A stretch of DNA of 64,000 bases from assembly GCA_030737835.1 (NCBI GenBank), contig CM060857.1:15511496-15575495 (forward strand), written 5' to 3'. The position numbers were made by a program, and so were the translations under genes. The notes under the pieces were generated by a model. That model saw only the letters and a program-made list of their open reading frames with translations. It did not search any database and had not been told where the DNA came from. Positions 5,571 through 41,527 of this stretch are shown one piece after another. Within the stretch, counting starts at the first letter, position 1, and the number at the start of each line of letters is the position of its first letter. This stretch comes from Acorus gramineus. Its lineage: Eukaryota; Streptophyta; Magnoliopsida; Acorales; Acoraceae.

Positions 5571-8500
5571 TTATAAACCTCTTAGCTGGCTGATTGTGAT
5601 TGTGCCCAACGGCTCAGAGAGAGAACACTGTGTGTGAGCCGATATCTCCTGGGCAACAAAACGCATCGCAGGTCTCGATTCTGGATTGGAACGAGTGCAT
5701 GCCAAGGCCATCCTAACTATGAATATGACTTCCTCTGCCATCTGACCTGTGGGGGCTGTGAGCCGCTGGTCTAACACATCTTTAAGTAGTAGATCTTCTT
5801 GGATCGATGAGAGAGTGTACATGAACTCTCTAGGATGTTTCCCCATCATGACTTCAAGTGCTACCACCCCAAAACTATATACATCACACTTCTCTGTGGC
5901 TTTCACTGTGTAAGCAAGCTCTGGAAATTTTAAATATTAATGAAAGTTAGTGAATTTGATGTTTTTTTTACATGAAAAACTACATATGATTCTAAAAAGA
6001 ATATGTATTACATGGACTAGTATAATCTTAAAGCTTATCTAGTATCATCCATAGCCTGCTTTGTGTAAAGAAGCTTATTTGGCAATATCTGATGTAATTA
6101 TAATGACATAGAATTATATGCAGCAAGAATCTCCTATGCTTTTGGTTTTGCTAATTGTTATAATGGTTTCCCTTTTAGTAGAACACCATGTTAGTTGAAG
6201 AAAATATTTCTATATGCACCTGCTGCCATTCAACTCCCACTGGATGTATTACTATTGATGTTTAGGTGAGTAATGATTTATAAGTGAATTTTACTCAGTT
6301 TAGTTGGAAGTATCAATTCATTGAAAGGAAGAAAACTCTGCATTCATTAAGCCCATCCATTCTAGATTGCACCCATTCTCATAGTGTACTGAGACAACAC
6401 ACCAACCCTATAAAATACTTCATAATGCTCTTCTATAGTCCATTGGAAACAGTAAGTGTAAATAAAGATAACCTGTAGAATGTTTTGTGGCGTACCTGGA
6501 GCCATGTATCCATAAGATCCAGCCACAGAAGTCCAAGTCGATGCATCAGGGCTTATCCATCTTGCAGTGCCAAAGTCAGAGAGCTTGGGCTCGAACTCCA
6601 TCTCAAGCAAAATATTTTTCACTGATACATCGCCATGCATGATTGTCGGGGAGCAATCATGATGCAGGTAAGACAGTGAATGAGCCACTCCTTGAATGAC
6701 CTTCACTCTGGTCCCCCAATCAAACATCCCAATCTCTCTATCCCCATATAACACCTTCCCAAGGCTACCCCTCTCAAGGTACTCATACACTAAGTACATC
6801 CTCCCATCCTTTGAGCAGAACCCATGCAATCTCACTATATTCCGGTGCCGAATTTCTGTCAAAGCTCGTATCTCATTCTCAAAACTCTTCCGATTGATCT
6901 CTGAAATGTCTCCAGAATCTGACATGTGGAGCCGTTTAACGGCAACCACCTGACCAGTCTGCAATTCTGCTTTGTAGACGCGTCCGAACCCACCTTTGCC
7001 TATGCAGTAAACTTCGCTAAAATTGTCTGTAGCATTCACTATGTCATTGAATGTGAACCTACATGCTGTACTCCAAATCAGATTCTTGGATATTTCATCA
7101 ACTCTGCTTATTGTTTCTTCATCTGCGTGTTTCAGATTTCTGGAAACATGAATAATTGCTGCAATGATGCTTGCCAATATGAAGATGCTGCTGATTGGTA
7201 TGACGATGGCGATAATGGTCTTTTTGTGATTTTTGTGGGACTTGTGACTAGGATTATCATATATACAGAGGCTTAACCCAGTTGCATTTCCACATAACCC
7301 GGGGTTGCCTACAAAGGCTTCTGCAGAGGCGTTCTGGAAAATATTTATGGATGGGATTGAACCTGTAAGGTGGTTGTAGGAAAAATCAAAGAACCTGAGG
7401 CTAAACATGCCTGAAAATAAGGAGGGGATCTTCCCTGATAGGTTGTTGTGGGAGATATTGAGCTTCTCCAATGTCCTCAGCTTTCCGAGATTAATAGGGA
7501 TAAGTCCAGACAATGAATTGTGGCTGAGATCCAAGAGACTTTGCAGTGTAACCAAATTGCCAAGCTGGTAAGGTATGTATCCTGATAAACCATTGTGACT
7601 CAGATCCAAGCTTAAAAGATTGCTAAAATTTCCAAGCTCAACGGGGATAGAACCATTGAGTGAGTTGCTCGAGAGGTCAAGCTGCTGCAGTTTAGGCATT
7701 CCAATTTCTGGAGGGATTTTACCCGAAAGCCTGTTGTTGCTCAGATTGAGCTTGTACAAGAGACCCAAATCAGCCAACTTTTCAGGTATCAGCCCTGTCA
7801 AGTCATTTGAAGCTAGGCTCAAATCTTGCAAGTTGGAGAGGTGCCCGAGCTCGCTTGGGATAACGCCGGATAACTTGTTCCCATCAATGTGTAAGTAAGT
7901 GAGGTTTGCACACTTCCCCCAATCTGGCGAGAGCTCCCCCGTCAACTGGTTCCCTGTGAGATCCAAATACAACAGCTGTGGGTGGACCCCGAAGACTTCA
8001 GATATATCACCAGTGAACTGGTTCCCTTGGAGCAGGGCTCTGGTTAATTTTGAGCAGTTCTTTAGGCAACCTGGCAGAGGACCACTCAAACTGTTTCCGT
8101 TGACAGTGAGATGAACGAGGATAAAGCCATTACAAATCCTTGGTGGCAATTCACCAGTGAACCTGTTGTTTGAGAATCCTGCAGAGGTTAACAAACTATG
8201 CTGGCCAAGGGCAGGAGGAATTCTACCAGAGAAGCTGTTTGTGAAGACTGATAGAAACTGTAGGTTCTCAAGACCAGCTAAAGAAGTGGGCAACTCCCCA
8301 TATAATTGATTCGTGTTGATATCTATAGTTTGCACAGATATCATTTCTCCGATCTCCATGGGTAGCGTGCCATTGAGGTTGTTGGAAAAGAGGTTCAAGA
8401 GAGAAAGCTCTTTCAAGTTGCCTATTGTCGGAGGGATCGGACCGGTGAAAGAGTTTGTAGAAAGGTCCAACTCTAACAATTTGGTTAAATTACCAATTTC

Positions 8501-9772
8501 TGGTGGGATTGGTCCCGAGAGCTGGTTATCGAAGAGGAAAAGAAGTGTGAGGTTTGACAGACGACCAATCTCTGAGGTGACACCACCAGTGAGTGAGTTG
8601 GTTTGCAACTGCAGCGATTCGAGGTTTGTCCATTTCGTGATGATGTCCCATGGAATCTCTCCAGTGAGGGAGCCGCTTGAGATCCCGAAATGTCTCATCT
8701 CTTTCAGGCCTGACAGAGCTTGTCGAGGCAACCCACCTCGGAGTGTGTTGTTGGAGAAGTCCAAGAAGACAAGATTGGAACATAGACCAAGTTCTGGAGG
8801 GATGGTGGTATTCAGCGATGCATGGTGAAGGTCTATATGTTCGAGCATCTTTAGCTGGCCTATGGAAGATGGGATCTGCCCACCTAATGAGTTGTTGTGG
8901 AGCTCAAGTACTCGGAGGTTTGGGATCCGACCGATCGTTGGAGGGATACCTCCAGTGAAGTTGTTGACTCCAAGGCGGAGTTCTTGGAGTCTGTTGAGCT
9001 TTGGGAGAGATGTTGGTATTGATTGATTAAACAAGTTAGAGCTGAGGTTGAGGTACTGAAGACTAGGTAGATCTGTCACCAACGAATCCGGTATCGAACC
9101 TGTCAGATTATTCTGGGACAGGTCTATGTATGTCAGATTCCGGCATTTTAGTATGAATGGTGGGAATTCTGAGACGAGATTGTTGAAAAAGAGAGACAGA
9201 TAAGTGACAGAAGGTAGGGGTGCGAATTTCGTGGAGTCTGGCGCCTCCAAGAAATTCGAACTGAGATCGACATGGCGTACGTTTTTGAGGTTGCCAAGCT
9301 GATATGGGACTGCATCGGTGAGGGAGTTGTTGTAGAGTCTGAGGTCAAGGAGCTCTGAGAGCCATCCGATCTCCGGTGGAATGGCTCCGCTGAAGTTGTT
9401 GTTGCCAAGGTCCAGGGAAGTCAGCTTGGACAGCAAAGCTAGCGTGCTCGGGATTGAACCATACAAGTTGTTGAAGTTAAGGTTCAGTCCAGTGATATTG
9501 GGGAGAGATGCGAAATCTAGCTCATCCAGGGTGCCTAAAATGTTTGAGTTGGGAAGGTTTATCTGGATGACGTTTTCAGAAGAGTCACATATGATGCCAT
9601 TCCATTTGCATGGACTGTGGCGGATTGAGGGAGTCCATGAAGTGAGGTTCTGGAAAGCCAAGCTTGTCTTCCATTTCAGAAGAGCCCATGATTCAGTGGC
9701 TGCTGGTGCTGTTGGGCAAAGACAGAGGGAAGAGATGATGAGGAGAAGAGAGTGTACTGTTATTGGTTTCAT
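5571..9772 (-). CDS. LRR receptor-like kinase, MIK2-like (subfamily XII type), HGD catalytic loop
   Basis: Two coding exons, 6496-9772 and 5571-5920, joined by a phase-1 GT-AG intron inside the APE motif (MAP|ELAYT), give 1208 aa. The order is: signal peptide (about 1-24), an N-terminal LRR cap with [11 protein letters not shown], about two dozen plant-type LRRs (LxGxIPxx), one transmembrane segment (about 852-876), then a kinase domain. The kinase has a glycine loop GKGGFG (about 925-930), VAVK lysine (about 946), DFG (about 1066) and GSYGYMAPE. The catalytic loop reads MHGDVSVKN, so the usual HRD arginine (about 1047) is glycine; this is therefore a non-RD kinase by sequence. The architecture matches MDIS1-interacting receptor-like kinase 2 and relatives, which perceive peptides at the plasma membrane. 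The ligand is unknown. The gene looks intact. The 575-bp intron has no evident element. Confidence 0.92.
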
Positions 9773-11957
9773 TGTTTCTTCAGTGAAATGTGTGAGGGAG
9801 GGAAGTCACATGTTTTCTTGCCAATTGCTTGTTCTTGAATCAGGGGAGAGTGTGGAAAGGTGCAAAGGTGTTTGAAAGAGTGTGAAAGGATGATGGAGAT
9901 GCTTATTGTTCTGGGGCCTCTAATGGGGAAGCTTCTTGCCTTGTAGATATGATGTTGGAGCACACCTACACTAACTGTGTTAATATGGTACTAAACTATG
10001 TCAATTTTTTTTTAAATCTGTATATAGGCTAGTGTATGGTCTTCTATGTTTTCATTGTCAAGGGGTGTGTCAGCTGAAAAGAAAATTGTCCTATAAGCTG
10101 ACCTTCTAATGGGTCAATGGATATTGGCAGGATATAACTTGTTATAATGAGCCATTGGTGAGGAAAATTTTATATCAATATGTATTCATCAGTATGTGTA
10201 TGTATGGATACACGTATCTATTGATAGAAATTTTCTTTTTATCAATATTTTATTCTAATAGATAGATTGATGGTCATGTATCATTCATCCTTATATCTAC
10301 TGATGAAATTCTCATGAGAGAAGCATTGAATTCAATATATCAAAATTGATTTGTGGACTTGTTTAACATGTTAAAACGTGGAAGGCCCCATAAAAATATT
10401 CTCCTTTGATAGACAACCCAAACCCAAGTCAGTCGGATATGGTTAACATTTGGGTTATGTTTAGGTTTGAATTACCTTGGATTAGGGGTTGGATCATGGA
10501 TGGAGTGACTTGTTTGTCTTTCAAAATGACATCATTTGAATTTCATACTCTGTAGTCTGTACTGGTTGTAAGTTATAATCGAAAATAATAGGAACTACAA
10601 CGAGAAAGAGATAATATATATAAAAATGAGATACTCTGGTGAGAGTTATGTTTACAACTCAGATTTATTCAAAGTTGGTGTTCTGATTGAATTCCACAAC
10701 AAAAACCTTAGCCCAAATAATACTGTATGATATTATGTCGTGTTATTTGGGTTTGGATGGGTGTGGCCTTGGGCCTAACTTTTCTAACCCCCTTTATAAT
10801 CCCATTGAAAATAAATTAAGAACAGATTCTGATTACAGTTGTCATGTTACTACCGCGGTATATAAAAATATTGCACTTATTGTATACTCTACTATCTTAA
10901 TATATGTTGTACTATGAAAACATATAAAATATACGTGTACAAATTTTTATAATAAAATATATTTTATTTGTTATGTATAATCAAAATATACGCGGATAGT
11001 ATATGAGACATAATCAGAATATTATGTCTGTCAATAATTAATGTTTACGTCAAATATGCAAAACGTGTTCGATGTTAATAATTTTTATAGTCAGAACTTT
11101 GAATAAAATTATTCCATTCATTTGCTTGACTTCTTTGACTGAGAGCATAGCATACGTTCCTACTATTCCATTCAGCTAAGGCCTATTTGGAAATTGTAGA
11201 TTTGTTTATAGAATTTTAGATCTACTTTGACAAGGTGATGAGATTTCGAGAACTAAGTAATGTGGGTTTTTTGTTTGATATAAAATGTCTATTAATATTT
11301 TATTTATTTATTAAAATTAGAACAAAAAATGGATAAATATTAGTCTAGTATTTAAATAAAATTAAAAAAATCATATTTATTGAAATATCCATCCATTTTT
11401 TATCTTGTTTCTACCAAACATTATAAATTTTAAGAATTTCATTTCAAACATTCAAATATATATTTTATATTTTTTTGTTTGTAAAAATCATGTATTTAAT
11501 TAGATAAGTATATATTTCAAAGAAATTCAAAACATGCTAAAAATATAAAAGTGACAGTAGGGATCGACTCTTGTACACTAATAAAGGTATTATGCGTCCA
11601 TTTCTCTTTGAGCATTGTTACACACTTTTTTTTTTGCAGCCTCAATTCTAACCTCATATAAGTATATAACTCATTAGCGTCATAATCTTGGATTAACAAG
11701 ATGGATACATAATACAAAGAAGTAGTCTGCCTACCATTTCATTTTTTTTTTAAAATGACACATACTCATATAAAAATTTTAACATTTTCTATAAATGAGC
11801 CATATAATTAATTGAATTATATGTTTTATTTTTTTATATATAAAAATATACACGGGATTATTAAAAAAATCAAAATATATGTAGACTGGAATTGAAGCAT
11901 ATAATGGTCTGCACGTAGCATTTTTGGGTCGAGCGTTGATATACTCAGTCCATTTTG
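9773..11957. other. Spacer upstream of the LRR kinase
   Basis: The first few hundred bases are the kinase promoter and 5' UTR on the minus strand; I see no clear TATA box. Around 10150-10330 there is a weak foldback (GGAAAATTTTATATCAATA against TATTGATAGAAATTTTC). Around 11167-11450 lies a possible Tourist-like remnant starting GGCCTATTTGG. The remainder is AT-rich. No open frame here resembles a gene. Confidence 0.4.
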
Positions 11958-37635: not shown

Positions 37636-40600
37636 TCATCTCCTCTTAGGCAACTGAAACGCCTTCTTCAAGAACCGATCAGCGACGACGTCGTCACGGT
37701 GACACAACACCCTCAACACGGTGTTCGGGTCCTCCCTATTCCACCTCCCCGTCGTCGGCGGCATCGGCACCACCTTCTCTTCCCCCACCACCATCCCCAT
37801 CCCACTCCCCTCCCACGCCGCCCTCCTAAACCCCTCTATCACCCCCACCGTCCCCATCCCCATTAACCCCACCACCCCCTCCACAACCTCCGCCTCCTTC
37901 TCCACCACCTCCTCCGCCACCACCCCCTCCCCACATACCGCGAACACCCTCTTCAGACTCCCCAGATCCTCCGCCACCGTCGCCTGCTCCGCCTCCGCGA
38001 ACGCCCTATCCCCACCACCCGCGAGCAGGACCATCATGAACGCCTCGAACGACGCCTTCATCACCTCCTTCACCGCGAGAGGCTGGGACTTGTCGGTCAG
38101 GATTGACGTCATGAGCGTCAGATTCTGCTTGAGCGCGCGGAGCGCGGGGTGTACGCGCGCGCTCGCGACGTCGCCTCGGTAGAGCGTCTCGTAGAAGGAG
38201 TGGTTGCAGTCGAGGAAGACGAGGCGGTAGGCGGCGACTTCGGAGACGTGGTGGATGGAGGATTGGATCGAGGACCTCGCGGCGTCGAAGTAGGAGGAGG
38301 AGGAGGTGGTGGTGGTGGTGGAGAAGCGGCGGCGGTGGCTGTTGGGGAAGCGCGGGGAGAGGGTGTTGTCGAGATGGTGGAGGTGGGTGAGGAGGTAGTA
38401 GAGCGTGTTGAGGCGGACGTAGAGGCGGTGCGTGCCCCGGCTCATGGTGGGTCGGGGCTCGGTGTCCGGGGGGTGGTGGCGATTGTGGTCGGAGTAGCCC
38501 GCATTGCATGTGGCGGCACGCATGCACAACTGCCTGATTTTCGAGTCCTGGTTGCACCTTGTGAGGGGTGGCAATGTGGGTATGTAGCTTTGCTTGGATC
38601 CTAAAAACACACACACAAACATAGTGAATTATGTCTTTATTTGAATAATGACATAAATTATTATGATATAGATAATTATTTCAGAATACATAATTAGAAA
38701 AAAAATTTATTATCAGTTTGATTGCGTCTTCGATTATTTTCATTGGGTGTAATAATGAAATTTTTATATTTTGTTTGATGAAAAATAAGACAGATAAAAT
38801 GTGAATAATAATTTATAAAAAATAAAAAAATAATTTGACTCGATTGATTGATGATTGATGACACGCACCGCATGAGTCCGTGAAAGATGTGTAGTCCCGC
38901 ACAATGGCCTCCCAACCATCCGCCAGGGCTTGAACGAGGTCGTCCCTCATCCCGATCGGTATCTCGAAGAACTCCTCCACAGTCTCCTTCGCCAGGTTCA
39001 TCAGCTCCACCGCCGATTGCGCGTGCAGTTCCATTTTCGACCTCGCGCTCCATGTCTGCAGCATTAGTACCTCAATCAGCACATGAACACAACACACAGG
39101 CTCAAACATATGTACAAAGCATGTTTGGTGACACACCTCAGTGTCCTTAGCCCTGCTAAGGCACTCCCTCCCTCTCTTCAACCTCTCATCGATCCATGTC
39201 TTTATGAGGCCGAGCACGACGGATTCGATCTCGTACGGCAGCATCTCCCTCATAATTGACTTCCCGCCATCATCGCAATCCGCAATGTCCTCATCGACCA
39301 TCTGGACGAGCACCTTCTCGAGTTTTCCCGCCGTGTTCAGGACTCGGATCACGTCATTTGTGAGCGTGGTCACCCCGGAGAGGTACTGCTTGAGCACGGA
39401 TCCGTAGCAATTGTGGAGGGTGACCGCCGCCACAGCCGCCGACGTGGGGTGCCACCTCTTCAATGTAGGACTGAAGTGCTCCTTCTCTCTCAACACAAGC
39501 TCTTCCGTCTCCTTCGCCAGCGCAACAAGCGACTCGCTCGTGCCTTCCTCTCCTTCAATCTCTAACACCTATTGACATGTCACATTTTATTCAATTATGT
39601 AAGAAAACCAATAATCCGTTTCGACGGGAAGATAACGCACCTTGTTTTTTTGAAAAAGGTAGATGTTGCTACCAGCTCTTTGATAACAAAATGATGGTTA
39701 CAATTCTGAATTGAAGATGTGAGGAAATAGAAAGAGAAAAAACAAGAAACTAAAGCTAAAACCGTATCGCTTGACCCTGATAAATGGGATGTGTACTAGG
39801 CTAGAGGGAAACACAAGCCAACACAAGAAAACGCACCTTGTTGAAGGCGTTCCGCAAGGACGATCGGATGTAGTAATCCACCCGACTCTCCACCGGATCG
39901 ACAGGCTCGAGTATCTTCGAAGTCGACAATGCGAGAGACAGAACGCACTCCATGAGCCCCACCCCGCCCTTCCCAAAGCACTCGTGGTAGTCGAGCACGC
40001 TCTTCTCCGCCCACCCCTGCATCGAAGCCATCGCCGAAGCGAGCACCCTCACGTACGCGCCGCTCCCCTCCCTGTTGTACTCTCCCCTCTTCGCGTCGCT
40101 CGCCACCTCCTCGAGCATGGCGAGTGCCGCGCCCAACAAGTCCTGCTCGGCTCGCCCGGCCGTGACGAACTGCTGGAACAGAACCCACGCGAAGCACAGG
40201 TTGTGAAGCGCGCGGTTCATCCCCAGCGTCGGCCACGTCTTCCTCATGAGCTCGACGAGCTCGTCGACCTCGTCGACGACGAGCGTCTCGTCTCTCACGT
40301 CGAATACTGATTGGAGGAGGGAGAGGTAGAGGTGGACGTTGAGCGGAGACCCGTCCGCCCAGTGACACGCGTCGGATTGCGTGCGCCACGCGAGGGCGAT
40401 GACGGAGCTGCAGAGCGTCTTCATCGCGTCGGACCCCCGTCCGGTGTCGACGGGCCTGATCTCGCTCGCGCGGACGATGTCGTGGAGGCGGGCGACGTGC
40501 GGGTTGGATGCGCGGTCTAACGGCACGGACGGGTGGAGGACGAGCCCCGCCTCGAGCACCTGTTATAATTTGAGGATACTGAGAATAATCAACCAAAGCT

Positions 40601-41527
40601 CAAAGAAAGACATAGAATTTATGTGGTTCCTACGATTCACGGAACACACCAGATATCAATCCTCATAAGAAAAATCTTTCAATGGCCTCATAAGAAAAAT
40701 CTTTCACATAGTAGATTGTTGTCGGAGTGTCCTGTAGAAGTAAGCTTAAACAGAACCACATTAAATTAAGTGTTTATTTGTAGTTTGGTTATTTTTATAT
40801 TTTTTTTATTGTGTCTGATAATTGATTATGGCTGCATATATATTTTCTGCATTAGGGGATAAAATTATTCGGGAATCCTAACAAGTGGTATCAGAGCGAT
40901 TCCCAACAGCACCTTGAGCTGCCGCTTCTGCCAGAGGTGGTACTCGTGCGCGTCGTTGAACTCCGACACCTTTAACTGGCGGAGGAGCTCCAGTGGGAGG
41001 ACCATCGTCTCCGCTCTTCGACCGACTTGGCCGAGGAGTGTCCGCAGGAGTGTCTTCCGGAGCCGCTTGTCGCTCTGTTCACTCACCCGCATCTGCTGCC
41101 GCATCAGCTCCGCCGAAGTCATGGGCCGCCTCACCCGACCCATCATTGGATTCGGGCTCATCGACCCGATCGGAGTCCGGTTCCCCGCCCGCCTCTGCGA
41201 GGGCCTGCGGTTATGCGCCGCGGGCCTCAGCCCGAGCGCGCGCTTGATCCTGCTCGCGCCCACCATGCCGACGCCGGGTCTCGGCCCCTCCCCGGAGGCG
41301 TTGGGAGGCGCGTCCGGGTAGTAAATGACGGGGTGGTTGCGGCCTGCGCATAAGACAGGGGAGGCGCGGCAGGAGGCGAAGAAGAGCTCGTAAGCGGTCT
41401 CGCGGAGGTTGTCGCGGTCGAGAGAGTCGACGCGGCCGAAGGGCCACTCGGCCTCCCTGTCGATCGCGCACACCACGTCCGAACGGAAGGACGACGACCC
41501 ACCGATCGACAGGCGCCGACTACCCAT
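37636..41527 (-). CDS. DUF810 / PATROL1-like (Munc13-type MUN domain) protein
   Basis: Five coding exons (40913-41527, 39837-40559, 39137-39568, 38869-39055, 37636-38600) give 973 aa. The protein closely resembles Arabidopsis At2g33420 along its length: WPFGRVDSLDRDNLRETAYE, RRPMTSAELMRQQMRV, LKVLEAGLVLHPS, CHWADGSPLNVHLYLSLLQS, QSYIPTLPPLTRCNQDS and the end FLKKAFQLPKRR. The family is related to the MUN domain of Munc13; PATROL1 itself tethers vesicles delivering the AHA1 proton pump to the plasma membrane. Exons are GC-rich, unlike neighbouring genes. ATG 41527 gives the family-like MGSRRLS start; the frame is open upstream to an earlier ATG at 41734, which I reject. The first intron is entirely an LTR-element remnant with its target duplication in coding sequence, and its donor (GTGCTG) is weak, so correct splicing is inferred. 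Confidence 0.9.
39645..39757. repeat. Dispersed repeat shared with the CaaX-gene intron
   Basis: AAAAAGGTAGATGTTGCTAC, then TTGATAACAAAATGATGGTTACAA and GGAAATAGAAAGAGAAAA, match 61717-61833 in order and spacing. Here it lies in the second intron of the DUF810 gene. Family unknown; possibly the end of an old retroposon. Confidence 0.5.
40561..40908 (+). mobile_element. Reduced LTR-retrotransposon (Copia or TRIM type) filling an intron
   Basis: The element starts TGTTA and ends CAACA. It contains an LTR-like part (40561-40883, ends TGTTA...TAACA), followed after two bases by TGGTATCAGAGC (40886-40897), the primer-binding site complementary to initiator tRNA-Met. A perfect 5-bp target duplication, GCACC, flanks it (40556-40560 and 40909-40913). 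It has no coding sequence and is only terminal remains of about 350 bp. The perfect target duplication suggests modest age. It forms the whole first intron of the DUF810 gene apart from one target copy. Confidence 0.8.

Follow-up and report, generated by a model that had tools for sequence, protein, structure and literature searches.

There are few clear cases of intron gain whose origin is known, and where new introns come from is a matter of dispute (PMC3443670). The question is raised directly by a PATROL1-like gene in the 64,000-nucleotide stretch of Acorus gramineus DNA analysed here (the window), whose first intron is made up of an LTR-type element and one copy of a short flanking repeat. 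Did the element create the intron by inserting into an exon, or does it lie within an intron that was already there? The merit of the locus is that its sequence resolves donor, acceptor and duplication to single bases.

The gene and its first intron

The gene lies on the minus strand and has five exons, which when joined encode 973 residues between the ATG at 41527 and a stop codon ending at 37636 (Table 1). A Pfam profile search of the joined product placed the TPR_PATROL1 domain (PF25761) at residues 566-973 with E 1.1e-157, which identifies the gene as PATROL1-like. The domain starts in exon 3 and its bulk is encoded by exons 4-5, so it falls short of the intron 1 junction; the N-terminal 357 residues matched none of the Pfam families at E 0.001. 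A PDB sequence search with the N-terminal part returned six matches with E between 0.084 and 0.3 (phospholipase D, histidine kinase), which we take as chance.

Table 1 Features of the PATROL1-like gene and of the element in its first intron (positions in the window)
Feature	Positions	Strand	Details
Exon 1	40913..41527	-	205 codons, ATG at 41527; open frame; GC 0.67; GC3 1.00 in last 20 codons
Target-duplication copy 1, GGTGC	40909..40913	-	last exon base + donor GTGC
Intron 1	40560..40912	-	353 bp, phase 0, AAG^GTGCTG...AACAG^GTG; GC 0.33; frame open when exons are joined, stop at codon 221 if intron is kept
LTR-type element	40561..40908	+	348 bp, TGTT...AACA; antisense to gene
Single LTR	40561..40883	+	323 bp, TGTTATAA...CCTAACA; ends 2 bp before primer-binding site; start placed from this single copy
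Primer-binding site (PBS), TGGTATCAGAGC	40886..40897	+	12/12 exact; sole exact copy in the 64-kb window
11-bp stub, GATTCCCAACA	40898..40908	+	follows the PBS; 11 bp from PBS to element end
Target-duplication copy 2, GGTGC	40556..40560	-	first G completes acceptor AG
Exon 2	39837..40559	-	241 codons; GC 0.65; GC3 0.90 in 20 codons adjoining intron 1
Exon 3	39137..39568	-	
Exon 4	38869..39055	-	
Exon 5	37636..38600	-	includes stop codon

Intron 1 splits the gene after codon 205 with the borders AAG^GTGCTGTT and ATAACAG^GTG (exon 2 starting GTGCTC), where ^ marks the junction. When it is excised, exons 1 and 2 read on as an open frame with no stop and the residues LKVLE are restored; when it is retained, a stop is reached and the product is truncated to 220 residues. 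At the level of the sequence it thus has the GT-AG borders and the frame restored on removal that define a spliceosomal intron. Its content is the 348-bp element and one copy of the 5-bp flanking repeat, GGTGC, with nothing else, and the three gene-strand frames of the element contain 8, 7 and 8 stops. The preliminary description had read the interval in this way, as a TG...CA element plus one target copy, and the coordinates of the intron and the element bear it out. The joined frame likewise upholds its placing of the duplicated bases in coding sequence (GGTGC within LKVLE) and the gapless exon after removal. Its derivation of the splice sites also stands: the donor GT lies in a target copy, and the acceptor AG is composed of the last A of the element and the first G of the target.

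Is such an interval likely to be spliced? The candidate sites between 41112 and 40359 were scored with a rough matrix. On this scale, none of the 42 AGs scores higher than the intron 1 acceptor, and three of the 38 GTs outscore the donor, one of them being the target copy in exon 2. The donor scores of introns 1-4 are 4.22, 7.55, 7.83 and 3.93, and the corresponding acceptor scores are 8.28, 3.58, 6.32 and 8.51; all four introns begin GTG. From +3 to +6, the donor GTGCTG is off the plant consensus. It had been called weak, which is fair by the rough matrix, but it is not the weakest in the gene, since that of intron 4 scores lower. The intron is AT-rich and stands between GC-rich exons (GC 0.33 between 0.67 and 0.65), a contrast which aids intron recognition in plants. 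From these sequence features, splicing of intron 1 appears likely, with some retention possible.

Two further observations concern donor sites in this gene. By the rough matrix, the highest-scoring GT near the intron 1 junction lies within the exon (CGG^GTGAGT at 41086); its use with the acceptor at 40560 would remove 527 nt. The donor junction of exon 2 and intron 2 (AACAAG^GTGCGTTTTCTT, minus strand) has an 18-nt near-repeat inside intron 2, 196 bp on (39629-39646 against 39825-39842, 17/18 identical), which may be a decoy donor or a trace of a duplication in the origin of that intron.

Elsewhere in the window, the minus strand of 6362-9805 holds a 1147-residue open frame with leucine-rich repeats and a protein kinase domain (PF00069, E 1.6e-32, residues 933-1103). 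The kinase match reaches only position 166 of the 263 in the profile. By its sequence, this frame is a receptor-like kinase, and the end of the kinase would lie in a further exon or have been lost.

Anatomy and class of the element

The ends of the element, TGTT...AACA, read the same in both orientations. The case for an LTR element turns on the PBS, a 12-mer which we take to be of the plant initiator tRNA-Met type. At up to two mismatches there are four matches to it in the window, the other three with two mismatches each, against a shuffle mean of 3.67. Under a mononucleotide model, and for this one PBS type only, chance would put about 1.9e-5 exact copies in intron 1 (both orientations), and about 1.8e-6 if the nearer end has to lie no more than 15 nt from an end of the intron; with some ten PBS types allowed, the chance expectation is ten times higher.

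The preliminary description had spoken of an LTR element. The type is right, as seen from the TG...CA ends and the PBS, but the structure is unusual, namely one LTR followed by the PBS and a stub, and thus the original insertion may have been longer. The final 13 bases of the element agree with the end of the LTR at 10 positions; four of the ten (AACA) are in part a consequence of how the element end was chosen. By ungapped count this is the best place in the element, whereas gapped alignment favoured another (score 7). Among 5000 shuffled tails, one equalled 10/13 at the LTR end and 117 did so anywhere in the element. The stub is therefore likely, on this resemblance, to be the tail of a lost 3' LTR. 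It also contains GATTCCC, which is able to pair with GGGAATC in the LTR end, and the resulting stem lacks significance, as 48 of 500 shuffles were equally stable. The idea that the stub is copied tRNA was rejected, because the bases that follow the PBS, GATTCCC, are not an extension of the tRNA-iMet sequence. Within the LTR there is a perfect 21-bp direct repeat (40661-40681 and 40686-40706, with a 4-bp spacer), which suggests a recent small duplication or enhancer-like repeats.

The element has the TG...CA ends and 4-6 bp target duplication of the Ty1/copia type (TGTT...AACA and two copies of GGTGC), the ends being placed from a single LTR. It also has the PBS just inside the 5' LTR (12/12, 2 bp past the LTR end). 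No coding sequence is left in it, and its assignment to copia rather than gypsy is one that we infer. In elements of the TRIM/SMART type, a short interior is flanked by two terminal direct repeats; here the longest direct repeat is the internal 21-bp pair and any second LTR amounts to at most a 13-base remnant. Nor is it a solo LTR, which has no interior, because the PBS and the 11-bp stub follow the LTR.

Two other classes were considered. An origin from a DNA transposon is disfavoured by the 5-bp duplication, the TG...CA ends and the PBS. To look for a retrozyme, 40300-41200 was searched with cmscan for a hammerhead and other RNA families, and two matches at chance level came back (E 1.2 and 4.7).

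BLAST within the 64-kb window found one copy of the element only, the best other match being 25 bp (E 0.001) and most of the other matches lying in the AT-rich stretch. Exact patterns around the PBS had no matches in bacterial, archaeal and viral contigs, collections which do not cover plants and are uninformative for them, and the PBS flank as a text string had none in the open-licence literature.

A probable insertion into an exon and its alternatives

We consider it probable, at roughly three chances in four, that a Ty1/copia-like LTR element inserted into an exon of the PATROL1-like gene and that its remnant is now the phase-0 intron 1. On this model, a Ty1/copia-like LTR retrotransposon, small or large, would have inserted antisense to the gene at CTCAA^GGTGC^TCGAG, duplicating GGTGC. 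LTR elements end in CA. Where the target starts with G, this end would give the acceptor AG, and where the target continues with GT, its other copy would supply the donor. The spliceosome would then remove the element with one target copy and restore the exon exactly, leaving the interval as intron 1. On the course we prefer, a longer insertion with two LTRs was later trimmed of its interior and of all but a little of the 3' LTR; insertion of an aberrant cDNA is also possible.

The intron borders coincide with those of the element and target to the base, and no intron sequence is left over. The duplicated bases form codons on both sides, and the adjoining 20 codons have GC3 of 1.00 and 0.90. 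Given an LTR element with these ends and only target bases between it and the exon, there is no room for an older intron. The intact five-exon frame of 973 residues with its PATROL1 domain is what one would expect of a gene that splicing has kept alive, or of a recent insertion. Against the model, the stub and the LTR end disagree at 3 of 13 positions and no full second LTR fixes the ends of the element. The earlier equation of insertion into an exon with intron gain is supported in part, by the anatomy, the frame and the splice-compatible borders; an ancestor with no intron at this site, the splicing of the interval and the order of insertion and shrinkage are what we infer. Gain is preferred to an older intron on the anatomy. 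Scans for orthologous proteins in bacterial, archaeal and viral contigs gave 3 (viral) and 32 (the other contigs) pattern matches, none of them confirmed, and a degenerate LKVLEAGL-type pattern gave none in viral contigs; these collections are uninformative for plants, which they do not include. A search of titles and abstract openings in open-licence literature turned up nothing on intron positions in DUF810, PATROL1 or At2g33420, the link of the gene to DUF810 and At2g33420 being that proposed in the preliminary description.

How much does the duplication contribute by itself? The in-register repeat is 7 bp (AGGTGCT) rather than 5, because the element starts with T and ends with A, which extends the match by a base at either end. 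Of the 5595 minus-strand AGGT...AG pairs in the window with a spacing of roughly 80-600 bp, 57 (1.0%) match by at least 7. Exact 5-bp flanks are found for 4 of the 1383 TGTT...AACA stretches of 150-600 bp in the window, one of them with the PBS. A 5-bp repeat in register, AG^GTG, also stands at the two ends of intron 2 in this gene, and a published study deals with direct repeats near splice sites (PMC11782384). Given these background matches and the repeat at intron 2, the duplication taken alone is weak to modest evidence.

The insertion into the exon may be real yet hardly or not at all spliced, in which case we would be looking at an allele of recent origin whose protein is cut short at 220 residues. 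The off-consensus donor, with its score of 4.22 against 7.55 and 7.83 for introns 2 and 3, would fit such an allele, and the intact exons downstream are as compatible with a young null allele as with a spliced one. We nevertheless think this unlikely. The intron 4 donor of the same gene scores slightly lower still, and an insertion not under selection would rarely land at a site that permits exact removal: among the 2922 positions of the coding sequence, 61 start GGT, 16 AGGT and only 6 AAGGT.

It is quite unlikely that an older intron holds an LTR fragment, with a coincidental match at its ends or with the old intron sequence lost around the element. The AG^GT border matches at other introns, such as intron 2 (compare the direct repeats near splice sites in PMC11782384), lend this some colour, as does the want of a full second LTR against which to check the element ends. 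Set against these are the layout of the interval, with only target bases from the donor to the element and nothing between the element and the acceptor, and the positions of TG and CA exactly where a 5-bp exonic target predicts them, and the 1.0% background of 7-base register matches. Very improbable is an origin by tandem duplication, or by repair of a break at AGGT with filler DNA, no integrase taking part: micro-homology or AGGT duplication would leave an in-register repeat such as AGGTGCT, and an intron gain by tandem duplication has been published in potato (PMC4974935), but the filler here is a TG...CA LTR unit with a PBS, and it is no copy of a nearby exon, having a GC of 0.33 against 0.65-0.67 and short exon matches only (e.g., 14 nt at 86%).

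The preferred reading, exonic insertion followed by splicing, contains a rule that can be counted genome-wide: any LTR insertion with a 5-bp target starting GGT in the coding sense is exactly removable. As a long shot, the LTR, PBS and stub could form a mobile one-LTR unit in Acorus, making exact introns wherever its copies hit coding GGTNN. Were this so, all TG...CA elements would be latent half-introns, their CA with the target G giving AG and the target GT giving the donor. Land plants, for which the survey in PMC9860276 reported no introners, would then have a small introner-like stream.

Comparison with known systems

This locus can be set beside known introns made by mobile elements. In maize, Giroux et al. 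(1994) reportedly described an intron made by Ds through transposon insertion in a plant gene, Ds being a DNA transposon, unlike the element here. A review describes the transposon route to introns that leaves the coding sequence intact and tabulates 35 unambiguous transposon-derived cases from Oryza, Drosophila, Oikopleura and Zea (PMC3443670).

Introners provide one point of comparison. Some introner families likewise take one splice site from the duplicated target and leave the mRNA length unchanged, but introners are multi-copy and many carry DNA-transposon signatures, whereas there is one copy here in the 64-kb window; the genome survey reports none in land plants (PMC9860276). The element resembles TRIM and SMART elements in being small and non-coding, and these are often found in or near genes (PMC4717578, PMC3281118). 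SMART shares with it the TGT...ACA ends and the 5-bp duplication, while TRIM and SMART both carry two terminal direct repeats in place of the one LTR seen here (PMC4717578, PMC3281118).

Two plant cases come closest. In rice, LOC_Os12g02840.1 gained an intron after segmental duplication which has 82% identity to a Ty1-copia protein over its entire length (Lin et al. 2006, PMC1779517). It too is an intron of Ty1-copia sequence in a plant coding gene, but that gain was judged against a paralogue and the Arabidopsis orthologue, whereas the Acorus locus is read from its anatomy. The rice match is moreover to the protein of the element, while here it is a non-coding piece of LTR and PBS whose borders can be read to the base (PMC1779517). 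In Arabidopsis, a fresh exonic insertion of ONSEN is spliced out (PMC12112155, where the gene is given both as AT5G32415 and as AT4G34215). The ONSEN case and ours both concern an exonic LTR retrotransposon and removal of the whole element, which in Acorus is predicted from the sequence; the ONSEN copy is full-length and very recent with long-read cDNA evidence, and ours is a 348-bp remnant read from DNA (PMC12112155). Thus, introns made by retrotransposons in plants are already in print, and the Acorus locus is a well-resolved further example.
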